NCBI RefSeq assembly: GCF_000508245.1
Contig: NC_023062.1
Location: 310,001 to 374,000, forward strand
Reading direction: 5' to 3'
DNA: 64,000 bases
From: Mycoplasma ovis str. Michigan
Lineage (GTDB): Bacteria > Bacillota_I > Bacilli_A > Mycoplasmatales > Mycoplasmoidaceae
A program made the translations under genes and the position numbers. Numbering within the stretch: the first letter of the stretch is position 1; each line of letters starts with the position of its first letter. This document shows, piece by piece, positions 2,337 through 64,000 of this stretch. A model generated the notes under the pieces. It was given only the letters and a program-made list of their open reading frames with translations, had not been told where the DNA came from and made no database searches.

Positions 2337-4235
2337 TTAATCAGGTAACAAAATCCCAAATCAATTTACTAACTCAGATTCTTTGTCTGGAGTTCAATTT
2401 TTGAAATTAAATTCTCTCATTCCCTTCTCATTTATACTGCCAGAAAAATCCGATGTAAAAGAAGCTGGCTTATAGTATTCTGAGCTAAAAATTGATTTTT
2501 CCCTAGAACTTTTTAGTCCATAAAACAAAGCCACTCCCTTAATTTCCCTAATATTCTTTATTTTTATTAATTGACTGTACAGAGTCTTAAGTGGCTTTGT
2601 TCCTGAAACTTTCTCTTTTATAACCAAGACTTTGGAATAGTCTTTAGATAATTCCAATATCCTTTGATATCAATTAGAACTTTCAAAGCTTAGAAAACAA
2701 TCTGCATTATTGCACGGTATGTCAACAATAGAGAGAGAAAAATTTAACAGTGAAATTAACTTACTGTTAAATGTTGAGTTCTCATCTGATAATGAAATAA
2801 CAATTATTTTTTCATTATCTAATACTTTTAATTCGTAATATCAATTAAGCCTTTGGGAAAGATAATATATGGCATTATCAATTTCATACTTATTAAACGA
2901 GTTTGGAGTTTTATTGATTTCTTTTGTAAATATTTGCTTATGTAGCCTAGGAAAATATTGGAGATAATAATCTAGGTTCTCAACTTTAGATAATACTGAT
3001 GAGATTTTTCCATTTTGAAAATTGGAGAGAGCTGATTTCAGAGAATCAAACTTCCCGCCAACAATATCTTTAGTTATTTGGGATACAACTTCCCTAGCTT
3101 CTTTTCTAGAGCTGATACTTGGATCTTCTAACGAAGATAAAGAAACTATTTGAGAATGTATCAATCCTTTAGATAAATTCAAATTTTCCTTTATCTTTAG
3201 ATCATTAACTTTCAGTTTTTTTAGGAAATCATTCATTTTTAAAACTATATTTCCCAAAAGAATTGGTGTGTCCATTAAACTTACTCTTTCATTTGATGAA
3301 TGAGAAATATCTCTTTCATCTCATAGTTCTATATTTTGATTAGCTACATCAGATAATCCCGTTAACCACCTAGAAAGTCCAGAAATATTTTCTAGAATTA
3401 CGGGATTTACTTTATGTGGCATGGCAGAAGAACCCACTTGTGATTTTTCTGACTCTAAATAAATTTCAGATATTTCTTCTCTGGCTAAAGTTCTTAAGTT
3501 AACTGCTAAAGAGTTAATTATTCTTCCGATCTGAGATAATGCAAACAAATAAGCCGAGTGTCTATTTCTCGGTAATGCTTGAGTAGTGCCTCAGATGGTA
3601 AATAGACCTAATCTATTTGCTAAATCTTCTTGTATTTCATTGCCTATGTGCGCAAAAGAGCCAGTGGCTCCTTTAATAGTGATTACTTCTATGTATTTTC
3701 TAGATAAGTAAAGTTGTTCTAAAGCATTTTCTAATTCTTGATAACAAATAGCAAATTTATGACCAAAAGAAATAGGTTCTGCGTGCCTCCCATGTGTTCT
3801 GCCTACTTGAGGAGTATTTAAGTATCTTCTAGAAACTTCATAAAGAGTTTCCTGTAATTCCTCTATTCACTTGATTAACTTTTTGTTAACTCCTCTAATA
3901 ACTAGAGAAGTAGCGCTATCAATAATATCTGAGCTAGTTAATCCGTAATGCAAATACTTAGAAATAGAAGAATTAGATAATTTTCTCTCCAATACGTTCA
4001 GAAAGGCAACAAAATCATGTTTTGTTTTTTTCTCCTCCTCTTCTATTTCTGTTTCATGTATCTCCAAGGAAGATCAAATTTTTTCTAACTCTTTGATTTT
4101 TGACGAATCAAGATTGAGAATGCCATTATTCTGGAGAGCATAAAGAACTTCTCGTTCCAAGAGACTTCATCTCTTATATTTAGCATCCTCAGAGAATAAT
4201 TGCTTTAATTCAGGAAGTTGATATCTCTTTATCAC
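2337..4235 (-). CDS. purB: Adenylosuccinate lyase with long C-terminal extension
   Basis: PurB cleaves adenylosuccinate to AMP and fumarate, the last step of AMP formation in purine salvage. The GTG start gives IKRYQLPELKQLFSEDAKY, matching the family N-terminus. Visible signatures are YGLTSSDI near residue 97, GRTHGRHAEPISFG near 147, and the fumarate-lyase loop GSSAMPHKVNP near 268, which carries the catalytic Ser. The lyase region ends near residue 465; the family is about 430-460 residues. The same frame continues without a stop for about 165 more residues to a TAA, giving 632 aa. I do not recognise that tail. The frame contains many TGA codons. The gene is divergent from dnaK across a 168-base gap. 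Confidence 0.9.
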
Positions 4236-4354: not shown

Positions 4355-6251
<1,897 letters not shown>

Positions 6252-21744: not shown

Positions 21745-23122
21745 ATGCTCTGGAAGAAGTTGCTTCTAGAGTTGGCTACTGTTAGTGGATTGGGGGGGCA
21801 TCGGAGGTTGATTCGGAGTTAATGGACAAGGCGTTTCGGTTGATTCAGAGGAAGAGACTTCATATTTAAAAAAAGAAGAAGAAACTTTAAGGTTACAAAA
21901 GGAATCGAGGAATAATTTAAGTGATGGATGAGGAAAGATATCTGAATTAGATCACACTATTTTAGGTTCTTGAAGATGGCGAAGTGAAGGAGTTGGGGAG
22001 GATTTACTCTTTATCAGAGGATGAAATGGGGCTGGTCCACACAAGAGGATATCTAGTGACCAGCACTCTCAGGCAGACAAAGATCTTTGAGGAGGAAGAA
22101 AGATTAGTATTGGTCAAGAGTGGTTTGGACCTAGAAGGGTATTTAAAGCTCTTGAAGATATGGAGAAAGTTGATAAAGAAAAATTTAAAAGTTATTGGCC
22201 AATAATACAAAAATCAGCACAATATCTGAATCAAGAAGATCTTGATGGAATACAAAGATATTGGAAAAACAGAAGCAGAGATCTAGAAGAAGATATTTTT
22301 GGACTATATCATGGTCGAAAATGATGAGCTGACAAATTTGGGATAAAGAAAGGTCAAGACAGGGTAGATCTTGAATTCGATTTTTCTAAGCTTAAGCAAA
22401 TGTTAAGTAAAACTGAACAAGAATTAAGGGATAAAAAATGAACTTTTGGACAAATATTTCAAAATCCTAAATTAGCTCAGGTTAGACTACTTGGAGATGT
22501 AGAAGCAACTGCATTTAATTATTTAAAACATGTTGCTTGACCGGAAGCTGAAGAGGTCAAAAAATTGCAAGAAAAGAAGATAGCTATTGCTGTGCTTGCC
22601 TTAATGCTTGGAGAGGAAATAGGTTTTGACTGTGAAAAAGGTGAGGAAGATCATAAGAGTCAATTCTTTGGGGAATGTTCTGCGAAAGTAACAAACGGCG
22701 AAGTTCAAGTCAAGAGAGTATTAAAAAGCACTTTAAAACATAAAAATGAATATAAAGTTCCTATGAAGAATCATGGTGGAGCGTGACATCTGCAAAAAAC
22801 TTTAAAAGATCCACAGGCATTGAAAAAATTAATCCAAATGGATAATATCAAGGACACCTCTTTATTGGATGAAAAATGTGAAGATGCGGCAGCATTATGA
22901 CAATTTTGGAGTTACGGAGCCACCGAAATTAGGAGAGAAATTTGTGATCAAATATTAAGACCATGATTTGGAGATAGAGTTGACGATAAAAGATTATGTT
23001 TATTTGAAGCAAAGGAATTTAAAAATTATTTCAGACTCAATATATATTTACAAGTCCTTGAAATTCCTTTATGAAACAAAAGGAATACTTTTTGGACTAA
23101 ATGCTCTAACTATGGAATATAA
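21745..23122 (+). pseudogene. Family A exported protein gene, out of frame at a G7 tract (phase-OFF candidate)
   Basis: ATG start, then a conserved hydrophobic N-terminus (WKKLLLELATVSG) leading into seven G at 21792-21798. From there the ATG frame meets TAA within about 15 codons. The frame matching the intact paralogs is open from the tract to TAA 23120-23122, about 440 codons with many TGA (Trp) and no other lesion. Six or nine G would rejoin the halves into a protein near 459 aa. Family landmarks are all present: SEGVGEDLLFI, EWFGPR, DLEEDIFGLY, GFDCEKG, DKRLCLFE and a final FWTKCSNYG. The family has no relative I recognise. This is the first member of an A-B-C cassette. Either a reversible OFF state or an early pseudogene fits. 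Confidence 0.75.
21792..21798 (+). repeat. G7 tract, length variant of the common C8/G8 word
   Basis: Most copies in the window have exactly eight C or G; this one has seven. The preceding codon has changed from TTC to TTG, which extends the run, so nine rather than eight G would be in frame. Confidence 0.8.
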
Positions 23123-32371: not shown

Positions 32372-33762
32372 CTAAATTCCATAGTTAGAACATTTAGTCC
32401 AAAAAGTATTCTTTTTATTTCACACAGGAATTTCCAGAACTTGTAAATAAGTATTAAGTATTAAATAATTATTAAAGTCCTTAATTTCAAATAGACACAG
32501 TCTTTTATCTTCAACTCAGTCTCCAAATCAAGGTCTTATTATTTGGTCACAAATTTCTCTCCTAATTTCTTTTTCTCCGGCAGATAATATTTCTCACCAT
32601 TGAGCAGCATCTTCACATTTTTCATCTAGTAAAGAAGTGTTCTTTATATCATCCATTTTTACAAGTTCTCTAGCTTCACTTGCATTCAATTTATTTTGTT
32701 GTTTTCAACCATGTCCAGCGTCTTTTTTCGGAGAATAATAACTTCCATAATTCTTTTAAGTACTTTTTAAGACTCTCTTTACTTTAACTGAATCACCTTC
32801 ATTAGATTCACATTCTCCGAAGAATTTACTTTTATAATCTGCTTTTCCGCCTGCACAATCAAAACCTATTTCCTCCCCTAGCATTAAAGCCAGTATAGCG
32901 ATAGCTATCTTCTTCTCTTTTAATTTTTTGACCTCTCCAGTTTCTGGTCATGCAACATGTTTGAAGTAATTAAAGGCAGTTTCCTCAACATCCCCAAACA
33001 CTCTAACTTTAGCTAATTTAGGATTCTGAAATATTTGTCCAAAAGTTCATTTTTGTTCCCTCAATTCTTTTTCACTTTTACTCAACATTTGTGTTATCTT
33101 AGAGAAATCAAATTCAAGATCTACTTGATCTTTACCTTTCTTTTTTCCGAATTTCTCGGCTCATCAGTTTCAACCATGATATAAGCCAAAAATATCTTCT
33201 TCTAGTTCTCTACTCCTGTTTTGTCAAAATCTTTGAATTCCATCAATATCTTCTTGAGTTATATATTGAGCCGACTTTTTGTATCTTTGGCCAGTAGCTT
33301 TGTAATTCCTTCTTATTTAATTTCTCCTTATTAACTTTTTCCATATCTGCAATTGCTCTAGACAATTGTCTAGGTCCAAATCAAGTATTTCCAACACTAA
33401 TATTCCTGCCTCCTCAAAGATCTCTTTCTGCCTGAGAATGTCTTTCACTAGATATTCTTTTATGTGGTCCCGCCCAATCTCATCCCCTAATCTAATAAAA
33501 AGTAAATCTTCACCAACACCCTCACTTTGTCATTTTCAAGATCCTAGAACTGTGTGATTTAACTCAAATATTTTTCCTCATCCTTCACTTACATTACTCT
33601 TAACTTCCTGTCTTATCTTTAAGCCCTCTTCTTCCCTTAAATAAGAAATGTCTTCTTCTGAATCAACTAAGACACCCTGATTATTAATTCCAAATTAACC
33701 ACCAATGCCCCCCCCAATCCACTAACAGTAGCTAACTCTAAAAGAATCTTCTTCCAGAGCAT
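32372..33762 (-). pseudogene. Family A gene, multiply disrupted
   Basis: The ATG and leader are nearly identical to the 21745 copy. The tract is G8 on the coding strand (33708-33715) where nine would keep frame. Immediately after it, the Trp codon conserved in paralogs is TAA, which would stop translation even if the tract slipped. Further lesions are a one-base insertion near 33280 and a TAA near 32757, where paralogs have Trp. The C-terminal FWTKCSNYG end is preserved and followed by TAG. A decaying copy. Confidence 0.8.
33708..33715 (+). repeat. C8 tract (G8 on coding strand) in family A pseudogene
   Basis: It reads ATGCCCCCCCCAA on the plus strand. It is out of frame with the family A body by one base. 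Confidence 0.8.
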
Positions 33763-33797: not shown

Positions 33798-35171
33798 TTA
33801 GGCACCGTAATTAGAACATTTGGTTCAAAAAGTGTTATTACTGTGCCAAGTGGGTAAATCCAAAACATTTAAGTAGGTGTTGAGTCTTAAGTAGTATTGG
33901 AATTCTGGAATTTCAATTAAACATAAACGCTTATCTCCTACTACATCTCCAAACCAAGGAATAACTATCTGGCTACAAATATTCCTTCTCAACTCCAATG
34001 AGGAATCTCCCAAAAAAGAAAAGAGATTTGATTCTTCACATTCTTCATCTATTAAAGGACTCTTTTTTAAATCATCCCTTTTAATTGCTTTTGCCTTATC
34101 TGTAACCTTTCTCATATCATTTCAAGTTCAAAATGTTTTAATTTCTTTTTCAGGAATCCTGAAGTATCCATTTCTGTAATGGGTGCTTTTAAGCACAGAT
34201 TTAAGATTCGCATTCCCTTTGAATTTTTGGCATTCGCTAAAAAATTCTTTTAAACTTACTTCGTTGTTTTCGGAGCAATCAAATCCTGCTTGTTCTCCGT
34301 TCAATAAAGCTTTAATGACTAGTCCTATATTTTTCTCCCTTAAACTTTTAGACTCACTTCGATTCCCTCAAAATATTTTTCTTAAGTAATTAAAGAAGAC
34401 TTGTTCAACGTCACCCAAAAGTCTTGATTGTTTAATTTTTTTATTGTTGACAATTTGTCCAAATTGTCATCCTTTAGTAATCAATGCTTCCTCGTTGGAC
34501 TCCAAAAGCTTCTTTAAATTTGTTAATTGAAATTCAAGTTCAACCAATCCCGTATCTTTGACAACACCAAATTTATCTATTCACCATTCCCTCCCTCTAT
34601 ATAAACATAAAATGTCTTCTTCTAAGTCTGGATTTCTTTCTTTTCAATACTTATCAATTCCCTCCAAATCTTTCTTTCCAATATATTCTCCTGATTTTTG
34701 TAATATATCTCAATAAGTTTCTTGTTTAATCACATCTTGAGTTTGATTTAATTTCTCAACCTCTAAACTTAATTTCCTTGGTCCAAATCACCTTAAACTT
34801 TCGCTAACTTTTCTTCCCCCAAAAAGCTCTCTTCAGCTTTGAGAATGAGAGTCACTTTTTACTATTTGGTGTGGTCCCGCACCATCTCATCCACTAATAA
34901 AAAGAAGATCTTCTCCGACTCCTTCGCTCTTGTCTCGTCAAGAACCGAGAGAAGTTTTATTTAATTCATTAACCCTACCCTCCCTGGGATTTAATTGTTG
35001 TTTGATTTTTTCATCTAGATTTAGTACATCAACACTGTCTTTAAAGTGAAAGTGATCAATCGAGGTGTCGATTTTAATATCTCCTCCCTTAAGGCCAAAT
35101 AAACCACCAATGCCCCCCCCAGCGAATCCTGTCATGGCTCCAATTTCTAAAAGAACCTTTTTGAAGAGCAA
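33798..35171 (-). CDS. Family A exported Trp-rich protein (457 aa), intact with in-frame G8
   Basis: TTG start; an open frame with many TGA codons to TAA. The leader FKKVLLEIGAMTGFAGGGIGG includes the G8 tract (35113-35120), read Gly-Gly-Gly, so this copy is ON. Landmarks: SEGVGEDLLFI, WFGPRKLS, DLEEDILCLY, FNYLRKIFW, GFDCSENN, ECEESNLF, PWFGDVVGDKRLCLIEI and FWTKCSNYG. It ends 36 bases before the start of the A pseudogene on the same strand, so the two are a tandem pair. Exported; function unknown. Confidence 0.85.
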
Positions 35172-40699: not shown

Positions 40700-41858
40700 C
40701 TAATCTAACGTCTCTATTCAGCATTTTTTCAAACTCAAACACTTTGTAATTATTTGTTCATTATTTTTCTGTAATTCAAATATTGGATTGCAAATTTGGT
40801 TGAATTTGTCGATTAAGTCTTGGGGGCGGGAAACAATAGTTCATTTTTTCGGATGGTTTCCTTTGAGGTGGAGGTGGTAGACTTGCTTAATAGAAGTTCA
40901 ACATTCTCCTTCAAAGAATGAAAAAGGAAAGTTAGCCCGACATTTGCATTTGGCTTAAGTGCCCATAAATCTCCCTCCAAATATAACCTTATTTCATTTA
41001 TAGCTATATTTTTAATTGTTTTGGCAATTCCGTGATGACAAAAAATGAGGTGCCCCCCCCAAGAAGAATTCCTCTGCATTTCTTCAACCCTTCTTCAGTT
41101 AATTGTTCCAAAGTAGAAACTAAAAACTTACATTTAGATTTAGAAATATCTTTTACTTGCAAAAAGGGGACTCCCCCTGCTCTGCAGTAGTACAACTTAT
41201 CTCAATAATAATTGGATCTGGGAGGTCTACTTCCTTTAATGATTTGAAACAAATTCCCAAAAGTTTCATGAGTAAATTCCTCTAGGTCATCAAACATTGA
41301 ATGAAATAAACATTGCATCCACTCTTCAAGTAATTCGTTAATTTTTTTCTTAAATTGAATAATTTTCCCTAGAGTTTCATAATTATTAACTATTCTTTTC
41401 TGAACCTCCAGAGGAGGTAAAGAAATAGGAAATTTTATGAAATTATCTCAAGATAAAGTTCCCCTTATAGATCCATGGCAAACTCACTTTAATCATTTTT
41501 CAATTTTTGAATTTTTAAACATGATTAGCAAATATTCTTTCATTAATTCTGAGTTAGTTACTCGAAAAACGTTATAGATATGACTAATTGCCACCAATTC
41601 ATTAAATCTATTAATATCAACAGCTAAATGAACATTGTTTTGTATATTCACAAGATCAATCACAAAATCACCTTTTTCAGCTATCCAACCTGTCTTTAAA
41701 TAAGATTCTTTAACCTCTCTAATGTTGTCAATAATGACTGAATACACGGAAATTCCCACCAACTTAGTGGTTTCTAAATTCTTGTTTTTTCTCTTGCAAA
41801 GGGCAACAAAGTTGCCAAGAGGAACAGCAGTTTTAAGCGCATTAACAGATTCGTCCAT
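40700..41858 (-). pseudogene. hsdS: Type I restriction-modification specificity subunit, out of frame at a G8 tract
   Basis: HsdS sets the DNA sequence recognised by a type I methyltransferase. ATG start; the N-terminal half reads through TGA codons with the typical repeat-ending segment PISLPPLEVQKRIVNNYETL, then a second target domain (GGVPFLQVKDISKSKCKF). At the eight-G tract (41053-41060) the frame runs out to TAG. The other frame continues with the expected HsdS segment CHHGIAKTIKNIAINE and LWALKPN. Nine (or six) G would join them. A second shift in a C5 run near 40824 separates the C-terminal DLIDKFNQICNPIFELQ. An ATG just before the tract could instead start a C-terminal half protein. 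It lies far from hsdM. Confidence 0.8.
41053..41060 (+). repeat. C8 tract inside hsdS (switch candidate)
   Basis: It reads GGTGCCCCCCCCAAG on the plus strand. The same word and position occur in the second hsdS at 58854-58861. Tract length decides whether the N-terminal and C-terminal halves of HsdS are joined. Confidence 0.8.
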
Positions 41859-52018: not shown

Positions 52019-53049
52019 TTATTAACCTGATAGTTTCTGAGATCTAAAACTAACTACTTATGAAAAGCTTAAGAGAAATCTAAATTTGTGTTCGTTGCCT
52101 AATTTAGCTGGTTAGATTAAGGAAATTCTTTTAAAAAAATACTAATTCACTAACAGTTTATTTATGAAAGTAAAACTGAATTTCAGCAATTTTAATGTTC
52201 TCTATAGCCTAACTTTTAAGTAAGTGGTCTGTAATTTTGTATTGTTCGTAATTGAATAGCATGATTTTTCTGAGTTTTCCCTCTCTCTTAGTAGTTTTTT
52301 GCATAAGCGCGATTAGATCGTCGAGACCTCTTTCCCTTAATCGTTCCAAAACCTAAAAATACAACTATATCCAACTTTCTCTAAAGAACACTATTTAGAT
52401 GCAGAATTATCAAAGAACAAATATTTAAGCTAAAGGGTTTAGTGGCTTTTTCTAAAACAGAGTTAAGACACAAATATCTGGACAATAAGAGTTTTAAAAA
52501 AGAATTCAAGAGAATCTTTTTTAATCTAGAAACTATTAGAGAAATGTTACTTTTAAGAATGTACTTGATTATCTGTTTTAATACTAGAGAAAAGCTTTAT
52601 TGATAGTTTTCGCATAATTAATATCTCTACTACCCCCCCAAAAAAAAAACTTTATTCCTTCTCTAGGGTCTGAAGGTTCGATTCAATTTACTATAGAAGA
52701 AATGAATTCATTGATAGAAAAAACCAGAAAATAACAGTAATGAATCATTAAAAGAAGCAATATTCCTTTTGAAGATGGTTTCAAAAATATAAGCCTTTTC
52801 TATTTAGTAATAAATAGTTAAGAGAGAACTTTAAAAAAGGTTTCCGGAAGAGAATTATCCTTTCAAAACCATAGGATTAATAAACGTTCTCCTTTCGGTT
52901 TATTTCTCGTAAAACTATTAGAAGTTCAGGGTAGATGACATCCAATATGACGATACCAATATTAATGAGTAAAAAATGAAAGAAGTTAATAATTCTCTTC
53001 CAAACTCACTAAAGAGTACATAGTCTTATCTCTTTAGCTATTTATAGTA
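52019..53049. other. Gene-poor stretch of about 1 kb with gene debris
   Basis: No intact frame longer than about 60 codons that I can support. On the plus strand 52822-52975 is open and protein-like (ELSFQNHRINKRSPFGLFL, then GRWHPIWRYQY) with TGA as Trp, bounded by TAA on both sides. It looks like a fragment of an unidentified gene. A C7-A10 run stands at 52633-52649. It precedes the hsdR remnant. Confidence 0.4.
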
Positions 53050-54883
53050 GTTCTGATCGGGTTACAAAGAAAAGAATTACAGTCATACATTATTGATGAG
53101 TTAAAGAAAATTGGTTACCTAACTTCTACTAAAGAACCAGAAAATACTCAAAATATTGAATTATTAATTTCTGAAGATTTCGAAAGTTTTTTAAGAACTA
53201 AGAATTTAAGTTCACATGCTATACAAGAATTTACTGAACAGTTAAATTCTTTACCCAAAAACATAGAAAATAACTATCAAATTTTTTCTTTTTTAAGAGA
53301 CAAATTAATTAATTTAGATTCTCCTGAAAGAAATATTTTTAGAGTTATTGACTTTCAAGGAGGAGAGGAAAATATACCGAACTTAATTGTCTATCTCAAT
53401 GGGATTCCCATAATAACTTGAATAATTGGAGAGCCAGATGACACATTAAGAATTATTCATAAAAAATACAAGTTACAAGTAGAACAGAACCCTGTACTCT
53501 ATAGCTTTAATGTTTTTTCATTAGTAGTCTCGAATAATAAACAAGCAAGAATGGGAGTTCCTTGATTAAGTTACGAAAAATGACAAGAATGGAAAGAGAG
53601 TGTCTCTAATCCAGAATCTTTGCAGTCAAGTTCGTTAGATTCAACAATAAAAAACTTATTTAAAAAGGAAATAATTATTGAGCTGATAAATAACTTTATT
53701 CTCTGTTCTTCGATAAACCCCTGAAATAAAAGAATTATTAAGACTTCTTCCCTGTATTGGATTCAGGAAATTTCTGAAGAAATTATTTCAAAAATAGGAA
53801 AATGAAAAGTAAAAATAGGTTCTTATTCTCTTGGAGAGGAGAAAGAAGGGAAATATACATTTTTCTTCTTACTAAATCCAATAAGACAAAGAAATGTTAC
53901 CCATCTTATATTGGCCGATAATAGGATATCAAGAGATACATTATTTTCTACTTTATCTCCTTATCGAGATTGGATTCAAATTGAGGGGATATCGCTCGTT
54001 AAAGATTCAAAGAAAATTCAGTCAGAAGTTTTAGAGAACAACGAAGTAATTCTTATAGATTTTGAGACTTTAAATATACAAATGCCAAAAATATCTAAGG
54101 AAAAAATTCTATGTATTTATTTTGGCGAAAAAAATAATTCCCATTTAATAGAAAGACACTTAAAAACTGTTTTTCCTCATTCTTGTTATTTGGAATTAGT
54201 TTTTGAAAGAAAGGAGAAAACAAAAAATAGCAAAAAATTGTTTCTGAAGCGGAACGAAAAAATACATGAACATTTTTAGATAGAAGTATCGTTTTAAAAA
54301 AAGTAAGGGGAAGCATTGCTCGACACTTTAAGGGTGGAATTGAAAGGGCTGATGCCATTTCTTATAACATAGTCCGAAATTTTGAAACCAGAACTCTAAA
54401 AGGATATTCCAATGGAAAAGCATTCATCTATGCTCGAGATAAATTTAGCGCTTGAAGAATTTATCAAGGAATTCGAAAGCTAAGGCCTGATTGATTCTCT
54501 TATAACCCAAAGGAACTCTCCAAAGTACATATGATTCTTCCAGAACAAGGTTGGAGTGAAGGATTATGATGGAGAGATAACACAGGCAGACAAATAAGTT
54601 GTTATGAGAAACTTGGGATATAGAATGAAGGGAACTATTAATGCGAGAATTTCAAAACGAGGATTCTGAATTTAAAATAGACATCTTGGTTTATGAACTA
54701 AACCAAGAATTTAATTACCCACTTCTAGACACTATTTATATAAATGAACTCTTTGATTCATCTAATTTAAAGCAAGTTATTTCTAAATTAAATAAATTTT
54801 CTGTTGGCAAGAAAAAGCCTTTAATAGTTAGTTATGATTCAAGAATTTCTGAACTATTGAAGAAAGAACTTAAGAAAAACTAG
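53050..54883 (+). pseudogene. hsdR: Type I restriction endonuclease subunit, decayed
   Basis: Three consecutive frames carry HsdR-like sequence. The first (to TAG 54277) has the N-terminal nuclease-domain pattern: IFRVIDFQ, then NLIVYLNGIPIITW, VVSNNKQARMG, and LFKKEIIIELINNFIL. Where family members have the GSGKS nucleotide loop and a DEAH box, this copy has unrelated residues. The second (about 54282-54623) resembles the helicase segment ending GIRKLRPDW. The third (54641-54883) resembles the late motor region (YPLLDTIYINELFDSSNLKQ, then GKKKPLIVSYDSR). No start codon is evident. Normal length is about 1000 residues, so restriction activity is lost. Confidence 0.7.
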
Positions 54884-58482: not shown

Positions 58483-59683
58483 CTAATCCAAAGTTTCAAC
58501 AATACATTTTTTTAATCTCAAACACTTACCAATTATTTGTTCATTATTTTTTTGTAGTTCAAAAATGGGATTGCAAATTTGGTTGAATTTGTCGATTAAG
58601 TGGCGGGGCGGGAGTTTAATCGGGTGCAATAACAATTTATCTTTTCGAATGGTTTCCTTTAATTAAGGTGGAGGTGGTAGATTTTCTTAATAGAAGTTCA
58701 ACATTCTCCTTCAAAGAGTAAAAAAAGGAATGGCAGCCCAACATTTTCATTTGGCTTAATTGCCCATAAATCTCCCTCCAAACATAACCTTATTTCATTT
58801 ATAGTTATATTTTTAATTGTTTTTTCAATTCCGTGATGACAAAAAATGAGGTGCCCCCCCCAAGAAAAATTCCTCTGCATTTGTTAAAATCCTCCTCAGT
58901 CAATTGTTCCGAAGTAAAAGTTAAAAACTTACATTTAGACTTAGAAATGTCTTTTACCTGCAAAAAGGGTATTCCCCCTTCTTGACAAAAGTAAAGTTCT
59001 TCTAAATATTTACTAGATCTTGGTGGTCTGCCTCCTTTCGAAATTTGAAACAAACTTCCAAAAGCTTCATTAGTAAATTCTTCTAGGTTGTCAAATATTA
59101 TATGAAATAAACACTGAATTCATCTCTCAAGATTCTTGTTAATTTTTTTCCTTAGTTGAATAACTCTTTCTAGAGTTTCATATTTATTCACAACTTTCTT
59201 TTGTGCCTCCAAAGGAGTTACTGAAATAGGAAATTTGACGAAATCTTTTCAAGACAGTTCTCCCCGAATTCCTCCAAAACACATGTAAAGCAGTCACAGT
59301 TCTGTTAACTCTTTTTTAAAAATAAGCTTTAAATATTCACTTAAAAGATTTGGATTGGTAACTTCAAAAACTCGGTAGCGAGAAGATACTACTCATAAGC
59401 ACCCTTCTTTATACAAACCAATTGGTAATCTTTTGGTTTGCTCCATGGCCGTAAGGCTTGTAACAAATTGGCCATAAGAAATTAAAAAACATACGCTTAG
59501 GTTGGTTTTCTTCTCTTCCCGCGAAGAGTTAATAATTTTCTTGTCTGAACTAACGCCAACTAACTTAGTGCTTTCTAAATTCTTGTTTTTTCTCTTGCAG
59601 AGGGAAACAAAATTGCCAAGAGGGGAAAATTTCCCCTCAGCTTTTTGCTTTACTTTTTCTAAATTAGTAGTTTGTTGGATCAG
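58483..59683 (-). pseudogene. hsdS: Type I specificity subunit next to hsdM, multiply out of frame
   Basis: This frame overlaps the end of hsdM and shares the same promoter direction. It reads PLGNFVSLCKRKNKNLES, then PISVTPLEAQKKVVNKYETL and a second target domain (GGIPFLQVKDISKSKCKF) into an eight-G tract (58854-58861), where it terminates a few codons later at TAA. The continuing frame has CHHGIEKTIKNITINE and LWAIKPN. A T-run near 58725 and further changes break the rest, although LIDKFNQICNPIFELQ is still present. No ATG, GTG or TTG start is visible. A close paralog of the hsdS at 40700, with a different first target domain. Confidence 0.75.
58854..58861 (+). repeat. C8 tract inside second hsdS
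   Basis: It reads GAGGTGCCCCCCCCAAG, identical in context to 41053-41060. Nine C would join the two halves of the gene at this point. Confidence 0.8.
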
Positions 59684-61229
59684 CTAGAATTTTCTCAACT
59701 TTCAATTCAAGTTCTCTAGATTCCTTGAGAATTTGAGTTAATTGTTCTGTTATCTCCTTGATTTCAGCATTTCAATCGTGATCATTTGCTGGAGCCTTAA
59801 AGGAAATATAAGTATTTGGGAATAAGGAATATTCTGGACTCTTTTCTCTTAACTCTTCCAGAGTAACACTTTTACAGAATCCATCCTTATCTTCATATTT
59901 TTCTGGATATCCTACATATCTTCATGAGTGAAATGTTTTAGTTATTAAGGATATATCTTCTTCAGTTAGCTTTACGTAACTTTTTTCATATACAACTCCC
60001 AATTCTCTCGCATCAATAAATAGTATTTGATTTGTTCTATCTCTCAATTCTCTTTTTTGATCTTGGATTGCTCTTAATTCTCTAGATTTTTTATTTCTAT
60101 TAATAATTCAAAGAGTTACTGCAATATCTGTGTTATAAAAAGTTTTTCGAGGCAAAGTAATTATTGCCTCAATTAAGTCATTTTCTATTAACTTCCTTCT
60201 AATCTTTTCTTCTTTTCCAGTTGCATCTAAAGATTTATTGGCCAAAAGAACTCCGGCAACTCCATTTTGTGATAATTTATCTCTTATGTGAAGTATTCAT
60301 GCATAGTTTGCATTAGAGACAGGAGGAACTTCATACCCATTTCACCTAGGATCATCTAATAGAGTGTTGTCTTCCCTTCACTTACTTTGATTAAAAGGTG
60401 GATTAGCTAAAACAAAATCAACCTTTTTGTCAGGATGTTGATCATTATTAAAGGTACAACTAGGTTCTCCTAGTTCAGCATCTATGATCCCTCTCATTGC
60501 AAGATTCATCTTGCAAAGACCGTATGTATCGCTCTTAAGCTCTTGACCGTGTACCCTTATTTTTTGATTACCAAATTGAAGTTCCTTTACCATTTCAGAC
60601 GTTTGAACAAACATTCCTCCGGATCCGCAACAAGGGTCATAAATATTACCTTCAAAGGGTTCAATTAATGAAACCATTAATTTAACTATTGTTTGAGGTG
60701 TATAAAATGCGCTACTATTGTCTCCTTTTTCTGAAAATCTATTTAAAAGATATTGATATGCTTTTCCTAAGAAATCTCCTTCTTCTTCGGAACTTTTTAA
60801 ATTAGTAATTACATTAATCAGAGACTTAACATTTGTTGGATCTAGTCTGGCATTTTCTGAAGAAAAAAAGTTTCTCTCAAAAACTCCTTTAAAAGTTTCA
60901 ATGTTTGCTTCCTCTATTGATTTAAAAACCTTATCTAAATGAACTAATATATTTCCTGTTTCTCCCCTCATTTCATCTCATCTTGCTTCTTTATAAAGGA
61001 AGGGAACTCCCTTTGCAGCATAGAAAGAAGGATTATCTATATGTCTAATCCCATTTTCTTTATGGATTTCTTCTCTTCTTTCCTGAAATTTATCGTCTAA
61101 ATATTTCAGGAAAAAAAGATATAAAACTGCATATTTATAGTTATGTTTATTTGCTGAGCCTTGAAGTGCTTCAATTTTCTTTCACATCTCATCAAAGATT
61201 TGAGTTACTGTTTTCTTTTCTGTCAACAT
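59664..61229 (-). CDS. hsdM: Type I DNA methyltransferase subunit
   Basis: HsdM transfers methyl groups from S-adenosylmethionine to adenine; two HsdM with one HsdS form the active methyltransferase. ATG start, 521 residues, full family length, with an intact frame through many TGA codons. The N-terminal helical domain has ALQGSANKHNYKYAVLYLFF. The cofactor loop is DPCCGSGGMFVQ near residue 200, and the catalytic motif is NPPF in DFVLANPPFNQSKW near 278. The usual LLANKSL and ITLPRKTFYNT segments follow. It is the only complete gene of this restriction-modification set in the window. Methylation activity depends on which hsdS is in frame. Confidence 0.93.
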
Positions 61230-61311: not shown

Positions 61312-62670
61312 TTAAATTCCGTAGTTAGAACATTTGGTTCAGAAGGCATTTTTATTGTGTCAAGTCGGAAAATCAAATATTTTGAAATAAGTTTGTGATT
61401 GAAGAAGATAATTAAAATCCTTAACTTCCACTAAACATAGTCTTTTATCTTTGACAATATCTCCAAATCAAGGAATAACTAACCTTTTACATAATTCTTG
61501 TCTTATTTTTATGGAAGTATCCCAAAATGCTCAGCTACTTTGTTCGCATTCCTCCTCAATCACTTTTGTTTTTTCAATATCATCCATGTTATTTAGTTTC
61601 TTTCAATCTGGATAACTAGCTTTTGTTTGAGTTTTTCAACCAGCGCCTTGTCCTTGTTTGGGAACATAATATCCGGAATTACTCCAAACAGATTTCAGAA
61701 CTGCTTTTACCTCAATTCCTTCTGTTTTTTTCTTGCATTCTTCAAAATATTTACTAAGTTCTTTATCTTGTAACGAGCTACAATCAAATCCAATTTTTTC
61801 TCCACTCATTAATCTTTTGATAACAGTTGCAATATCCTTTTCCTTTAATTTTTGGTTTTTCGCCTCTTCAGGTCAAATCATTCTTTTTAAGTAATTAAAG
61901 GCAACTTCTTCTAAATTTCCCAAAAGACGAATTGTTTTTATTCAGGAGCTGTTAACTCATTCTCCATAACTTCACTTTTGTTTCTTTAGTTGATCTTCTG
62001 TGTGGTTGAGCATATCCTTTATTCCCGTTAAGTCCAATTCCAAAGCAACTCTTTTCTTTTCCTTGTCTTCGCCCATAACTTTAATTCATCAACTTCTAGG
62101 TTGATATAAGCTCAACACATCTTCCTCTAATTCAATACTTCTTTTGCCTCAAAAATTAGATAATCCTTTCAATTCTTCTTTACTTATATATTTCCCCGAA
62201 TCTCTCAGTAAATCCCAGAGGTTTTTGTTACTCCCTCGCCCTTTCTTTCCGTATATTTCTTGGGCAATTCGACTTGCAATTCTAGGACCAAATCAACCCA
62301 TGCTACTGCTTATTCTCCTACCTCCAAAGAGCTCTCTTGAGCTCTGGGAGTGAGAATCACTATTTATTACTTTATGTGGTCCCGCTCACTCTCAACCCTT
62401 TACGAACAATAAATCTTCACTAACTCCTTCACTTTTGAACCTTCAAGACTTGAAAACCGTACTATTCAAAAGAGAGACCAATCCAACATCAGACTCCAAC
62501 GAATTACTAAATTTTGGTTTTTTAGTTAAATCGGGAGAACTTTCTCCGAAGTAATAAAGTTCATCTTCGGAATTGACTTCCAAACCATTATTAGAAGAGC
62601 CTATTCATCCTCCTATGCCCCCCCCAAATCCTGTTATAGCTCCAATTTCCAATAACAGTTTTTTTCACAT
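61312..62670 (-). CDS. Family A exported Trp-rich protein (452 aa), intact with in-frame G8
   Basis: ATG start; leader KKLLLEIGAITGFGGGIGG, with the tract (62618-62625) read Gly-Gly-Gly in frame. It is open to TAA 61312-61314 with many TGA (Trp) codons. Landmarks: SEGVSEDLLFVKGW, ELFGGRRISS, WFGPRIAS, ELEEDVLSLY, FNYLKRMIWP, GFDCSSLQ, ECEQSSW, PWFGDIVKDKRLCL and FWTKCSNYG. It is divergent from the next A copy, with only 54 bases between the two start codons. Confidence 0.85.
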
Positions 62671-62724: not shown

Positions 62725-64000
62725 ATGCTTTGGAAAAAGATTCTTCTAGAGTTAGCTACAGTTAGTGGCTTCGGGGGGGGCATTGGTGGTTGATTTGGAG
62801 TTAATGGTCAAGGTGTTTCAATTGATTCAGAAGAAGAAATTTCATATTTAAAGGGAGAAAAATCTTTAAAGATAAATAAGGGAGTTAGAAGTAGCTTGAG
62901 TGATGGTTGAGGTCAAATAGCGGAGTTAGATCATACAATCTTAGGATCTTGAAGATGGCAAAGTGAGGGTGTAGGCGAAGATTTACTATTCATAAAAGGA
63001 TGAGATAGGGCGGGCCAACACTAGAGAATAAATAGCGATAAACACTCACAAGCAGAAAGAGATCTCTGGGGAGGAAGAGGTATTAGCCTTGGAAATAATT
63101 GATTCGGACCTAGAAGGGTATCTAGGTCAATTGATGATATTGAAGTAGCTAAACAAGCAAAGTTAAAGAAAGGCGAAATAGATAGTTATTGGCCCATAAT
63201 ACAAAAATCGACACAATACCTAAATCAAGAGGATCTTGATGGAATTCAAAAATTTTGACAAAACAGAGACAGAGAGCTAGAAGAAGATATTTTTGGTTTA
63301 TATAATGGTTGAAGCTGATGAGCCGAGAAATTTGGGAAAAAGATAGGCCAAGAAAAGGTAGATCTGGAGTTCGATATTTCGCAGATAAAACAAGTTTTTG
63401 AAATGAGTGAAAAGGATTTAAGAGATAGAAACTGAACTTACGGAGAATTAATTAAAAATCCTAAATTGTCTGCAGTTAGATTATTGGGAAATGTCGAAGC
63501 AACTATCTTTAATTATTGAAAGCATATCGCTTGACCTGAGGCTGACAAAGTAAAGAACTTAAAAGAGAAGAAAATTGCCATCGCAGTTCTTTCCTTAATT
63601 CTAGGTGAAGAGATAGGCTTTGATTGCGAAAAAGGAAATGGAGGAGATAAGACCATTTTCTTCAGTGAATGTAGTTCAACAATTAATGGCGGTAAAGTCA
63701 AAAGAGTTCTAAAAAGCACTTGACAAAATAGCAGTGGCCAATATTGAGTGCCTCTTAAGAATCATTGCGCGGCATGAAATTTTCACAGACCCTTAAGAGA
63801 TAGGAGCAAAAAGCAATAATTGATAAAAATGGATGATGTTTCAAAAACTTCTTTATTAGATGAAAAATGTGAAGAATCTTCTTTGTTTGATTTATTTGAT
63901 CCCAATAAAAAAATTAGACAAGAGGCTTGTGAAAGGTTATTAAACCCATGATTTGGTGATTCTGTCGAAGACAAAAGGTTATGTTTATTTCAATCTTCAG
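62725..64000 (+). pseudogene. Family A gene with two nonsense codons, truncated by window end
   Basis: ATG start and leader WKKILLELATVSGF with G8 (62773-62780) in frame. The family sequence continues until TAG at 63022-63024, where paralogs have a Lys codon. A second stop, TAA near 63820, stands where paralogs have Gln. The rest matches the family (SEGVGEDLLFI, WFGPRRV, ELEEDIFGLY, PWFGDSV, KRLCLF) and runs off the right edge before the expected C-terminus. Confidence 0.8.

Follow-up and report, generated by a model that had tools for sequence, protein, structure and literature searches.

In NgoAV, a change in the length of a poly-G run within hsdS alters the methylated motif (PMC6789123, PMC9577141), and the truncated specificity subunit ends at about residue 208 of 410 (PMC9577141). 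The hsdS gene studied here resembles that of NgoAV of Neisseria gonorrhoeae (hsdS1/hsdS2), where the poly-G run splits the gene and a change in its length fuses or truncates the subunit. It lies within a stretch of 64 kb, hereafter the window, that spans positions 310001-374000 of Mycoplasma ovis strain Michigan (CP006935; a single contig of 702,511 bp). M. ovis is a blood parasite of sheep.

The interrupted hsdS gene and the hsd genes of M. ovis

Read with genetic code 4 (UGA = Trp), the locus at 40700-41858 contains no uninterrupted frame with two target domains; three frames take its place (Table 1). The first stops 15 codons past the G8 tract, and the second, one base off from it, is still HsdS sequence. 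The same three frames in the same order were recovered by tblastn with uninterrupted HsdS relatives as queries. The gene therefore does lose its frame exactly at the C8 of the forward strand, as the initial annotation had proposed, and the second shift placed there in a C5 run near 40824 was likewise recovered. Methylase_S (PF01420) was detected in the first frame (E = 5.5e-9), and the HsdS family profile matched the solved structures 1YF2 (3e-41) and EcoR124 HsdS (3e-23). A PDB search with one HsdS sequence alone retrieved no match, Rfam gave zero matches in the 64-kb window, and a search for related loci reported no close relatives.

Table 1. Features of the hsd loci in the window (window positions)
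Feature	Position	Strand	Remarks
hsdS, first frame	41004-41858	-	284 aa, start at 41858; TRD1, central conserved region and about one-third of TRD2
G8 tract, frame break 1	41053-41060	C8 on +, G8 on coding minus strand	CAC next on the coding strand; in TRD2 loop
hsdS, second frame	40813-41052	-	Remainder of TRD2; reads HLIFCHHGIAKTIKNI...LWALKPN
Frame break 2	40822-40830	C5 inside CCCGCCCCC on coding strand	C-rich PP, LPPQ-type motif
hsdS, third frame	40700-40821	-	C-terminal helical part; reads LIDKFNQICNPIF...CWIETLD, then stop
Second hsdS copy	58486-59683	-	Adjoins hsdM; broken at its own G8 plus two more breaks
G8 tract of second hsdS	58854-58861		Position equals that of the 41053-41060 tract
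hsdM	59664-61229	-	Intact; only hsdM found in the genome
hsdR, N-terminal remnant	53038-54880	+	Frameshifted, no motor domain

Alignment to uninterrupted relatives and to 1YF2 puts the tract at the turn before the strand that enters the GxxGK-like loop of TRD2, a spot that is probably glycine-tolerant, in that the turn could take extra glycines. The predicted shortened product would keep TRD1 and the central region and end inside TRD2, so that it resembles a half subunit less clearly than the product of NgoAV does. A half subunit that starts from the ATG just before the tract, suggested earlier as an alternative, is implausible, since this 88-aa piece (41079-40813) has no Pfam domain. The M. 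ovis Michigan genome was sequenced with Illumina HiSeq at 1500x and MiSeq at 1000x (PMC3907730); at such depth homopolymer miscalls at runs are unlikely, and so is a sequencing artefact as the source of the G8 at hsdS.

M. ovis carries hsdS at seven loci. Five copies (the two in the window and those at 258, 452 and 645 kb) are broken at the G8, and a sixth, at 455 kb, has its G8 in frame and is broken elsewhere. The only uninterrupted M. ovis HsdS, at genome positions 457940-459130, has 397 codons and no tract. The G8 occupies the same TRD2 position in the gene at 40700-41858, the hsdM-adjacent copy and the 258-kb copy, and lies further on in the 452-kb and 645-kb copies. A GA-rich simple repeat, which reads EREREREKRERERE, was found between two hsdS copies (L014, near 5400-5500; genome about 453400-453500). 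M. ovis does not encode the complete HsdM and HsdR of an active type I restriction-modification system: HsdM is intact, N-terminal remnants are all that is left of hsdR, and the SWI2_SNF2 motor domain had no match anywhere in the genome. The HsdR motor is present in five sister genomes. Restriction in M. ovis is probably dead as a result; methylation through its intact HsdS is possible, judging from the gene content.

Such a gene set suits plain decay, in which the hsdS at 40700-41858 would be a pseudogene whose G8 is one indel among several and plays no part in switching in present-day M. ovis. Besides the two breaks in this gene, the hsdM-adjacent copy has three, every other tract-bearing copy has additional lesions, HsdR has lost its motor, and one uninterrupted HsdS exists that has no tract. 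We give decay somewhat less than an even chance. The same lesions bear on the switch envisaged in the initial annotation, in which one added base would join the frames. A full-length HsdS would not result from that step at 40700-41858, where the second break remains, and with the further lesions of the other tract-bearing copies and a sole uninterrupted HsdS that is tractless, a one-step switch is unsupported for this gene.

G8 tracts, reading frame and hsdS in the suis cluster

Runs of eight G or C are far too numerous in the window for chance: about 0.18 would be expected by extrapolation from the tail of the shorter runs, and 16 were observed, next to 21 runs of length five, one of six, two of seven and one of nine. 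The tract of the hsdS gene is thus an above-chance homopolymer within coding sequence. M. ovis has 120 exact 8-runs, and six sister genomes (M. suis Illinois, G002 in 40 contigs, Ca. M. haemolamae, M. wenyonii, Ca. M. haemominutum and M. parvum) have 55-131, against 0-4 in the family's other genera. All seven hemoplasma genomes of the suis cluster are rich in them, while M. haemofelis and M. haemocanis have four each, and this contrast identifies the tract set as a suis-cluster trait. Such tracts are not described in the open hemoplasma genome papers that we examined. MutS is absent from all seven suis-cluster genomes, which favours slippage. In the window, the run also lies in the part of a surface-protein family that encodes the signal peptide (21792-21798, 33708-33715, 35113-35120, 62618-62625 and 62773-62780). 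The frame is kept in three of these copies and lost in the other two, one of which has the G7 and one a G8.

Tracts in hsdS were found in six species, at about five positions within the gene. In M. wenyonii, five copies are intact save for a G8 break, one of them at the position of the 41053-41060 tract and four at that of the 452-kb M. ovis copy; a single length change would restore each of these five, whereas it would not restore the gene at 40700-41858. In the 121-kb gene of M. wenyonii and two genes of G002 the G8 is in frame and separates the central helix from the second target domain. One M. wenyonii HsdS (L061:1100-2347) combines an in-frame G8 with a tandem array of about eight LERQ repeats that lies between the target domains. 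Six Ca. M. haemolamae paralogs, with a G8 after the first target domain, are off by one. In a seventh (L048, near 3900-4000) with the same G8, a single-base difference about 70 nt downstream restores the frame, and this natural indel indicates that full-length HsdS has been selected for. The hsdS genes of M. suis and M. parvum carry G and C tracts, in frame in some and out of frame in others, and no hsdS was found in Ca. M. haemominutum.

Tract windows were assigned a phase by comparison with every other open frame in the stretches sampled, which amount to about one-third of M. ovis plus portions of the sister genomes. Of 51 scored frames broken at tracts of length eight, 50 had a -1 offset, and all 8 broken at length nine had a +1 offset, in a scoring where short-match scores are weak and tandem paralogs are not independent; many tracts of length eight were in frame. 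A real change of length at the tract predicts this coupling. Tract length sets the frame across the lineage, and at 41053-41060 the one-base offset between the frames suggests the same.

Judged by its substitution pattern, the coding sequence beyond the hsdS tract is conserved as protein. The dN/dS ratios past the tract, rough values because many synonymous distances are near saturation, are mostly 0.1-0.35. For the gene at 40700-41858 the ratio is 0.11 against the 258-kb copy and 0.32 against M. wenyonii; that against the hsdM-adjacent copy, 0.87, takes in the out-of-frame part of that copy. The G8 itself is identical letter for letter in six hsdS copies of three species in which the surrounding DNA is 54-86% identical. 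Neither the constancy of the run in such divergent surroundings nor the protein conservation downstream of it is readily explained by decay, which on its own also leaves the genome-wide set of tracts unexplained.

Conservation past the tract would also follow if slippage occurred at the RNA level, by ribosomal -1 frameshifting or RNA polymerase stutter on the G8, giving a fixed mix of short and full-length HsdS from unchanged DNA. The near-uniform offset in hsdS frames broken at length eight and the almost constant tract length in M. ovis fit this mechanism as well. However, it would be purely harmful at the many tracts in frame at eight, the coding strand carries G at 131 and C at 53 of the phased tracts, and the compensating indel in one Ca. 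M. haemolamae copy would be needless if slippage made the protein. We regard RNA slippage as very improbable, the least probable of the readings considered here.

Recombination offers another account of the copies. Two hsdS copies of G002 share a common sequence before the tract and differ after it, and in M. ovis several dispersed partial copies accompany one intact gene and a single hsdM, as might be expected if the tract-bearing copies were silent cassettes that donate sequence by recombination to an hsdS that is expressed, as happens in other mycoplasmas, with the tract marking or promoting exchange. The fixed C after the run, described below, would suit such a recognised element. Tracts are present in unrelated gene families too, which argues against this role, and we consider it unlikely.

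The base after the run and the floor at eight

In the window and the sister genomes, C comes next after G/C runs of at least eight in 296 of 343 cases (86%), and in 214 of 256 once similar flanks are removed; after runs of four or five it does so in 286 of 1573 (18%). Examples in the window start at 33708, 35113, 62618 and 62773. Hardly any runs of six or seven occur. Slippage by itself predicts neither a fixed neighbouring C nor a floor at eight and is therefore insufficient as an explanation. The bias towards C is seen in either orientation of the run relative to genes, and this suggests a feature at the level of the DNA. A more tentative proposal, and a rather unlikely one, is that G8C (at least eight Gs followed by C) is a suis-cluster-specific DNA element in surface-protein and hsdS genes, recognised or created by a dedicated factor. 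The tracts would then be slippage sites and also part of a maintained system that diversifies antigens and methylation together.

The state of the M. ovis tract and comparison with known systems

Poly-G phase variation of HsdS, of the NgoAV kind, is in our analysis the best reading. We consider it fairly probable that the G8 in hsdS is a slippage-type phase-variation tract of the suis-cluster set, and most likely that the M. ovis copy is a member of it that has become locked off or is decaying. This likelihood refers to the origin and class of the tract, and the one given above for decay to the present state of the copy, so that the two overlap. In the proposed mechanism, the tract would lie in a glycine-tolerant loop of TRD2, or between the target domains, and replication slippage by one base would fuse the two parts of the specificity subunit or split them apart. 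The HsdM-HsdS methylase may then gain, lose or change its target. From the sequences we infer that tract length varies in living populations and would alter methylation.

At the level of the system, the specificity switch put forward in the initial annotation thus agrees with the recurrence of tracts in the hsdS genes of six species, with the link between tract length and frame, with the conserved protein downstream and with the absence of MutS, whereas as a one-step switch it lacks support at this locus. The second break, together with the missing HsdR motor, means that the gene at 40700-41858 is probably locked off, and a relative of the sister-species switches that no longer switches is a likelier reading of it than a working switch. 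Every M. ovis hsdS tract has length eight, and the entire genome has only two runs of nine; this constancy counts against free slipping, under which there should be more spread.

The G/C runs of the suis cluster probably act as genetic on/off switches, and the tract system as a whole looks like phase variation with HsdS as a repeated target. Hemoplasmas are unculturable and remain in the blood for a long time. With about 100 tracts in each genome, located in genes for surface proteins and methylation specificity, they would have a simple means of generating variation within the host, and tract variation is directly checkable by sequencing blood samples.

Some M. wenyonii and G002 copies are like NgoAV in that the run lies between the two halves of the gene, and the four-residue LERQ repeat of M. 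wenyonii HsdS recalls the LEAT repeats of NgoAV. Unlike NgoAV, the hsdS at 40700-41858 has its run inside TRD2 and bears a second break, and the hemoplasma genomes contain many run-bearing hsdS copies with putative switching. The contingency tracts of Campylobacter similarly comprise dozens of G/C runs inside the genes of an AT-rich genome, and many of these genes encode surface proteins (in part, PMC8355987). The suis-cluster tracts differ from these in a length sharply set at eight, with six and seven nearly absent, and in the C that follows in 86%. Several hsdS copies with proposed variation of specificity are shared with the hsd loci of Mycoplasma pulmonis and M. haemofelis (PMC3196708); those loci instead use gene rearrangement or tandem repeats, and M. 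haemofelis is without the G8 set.
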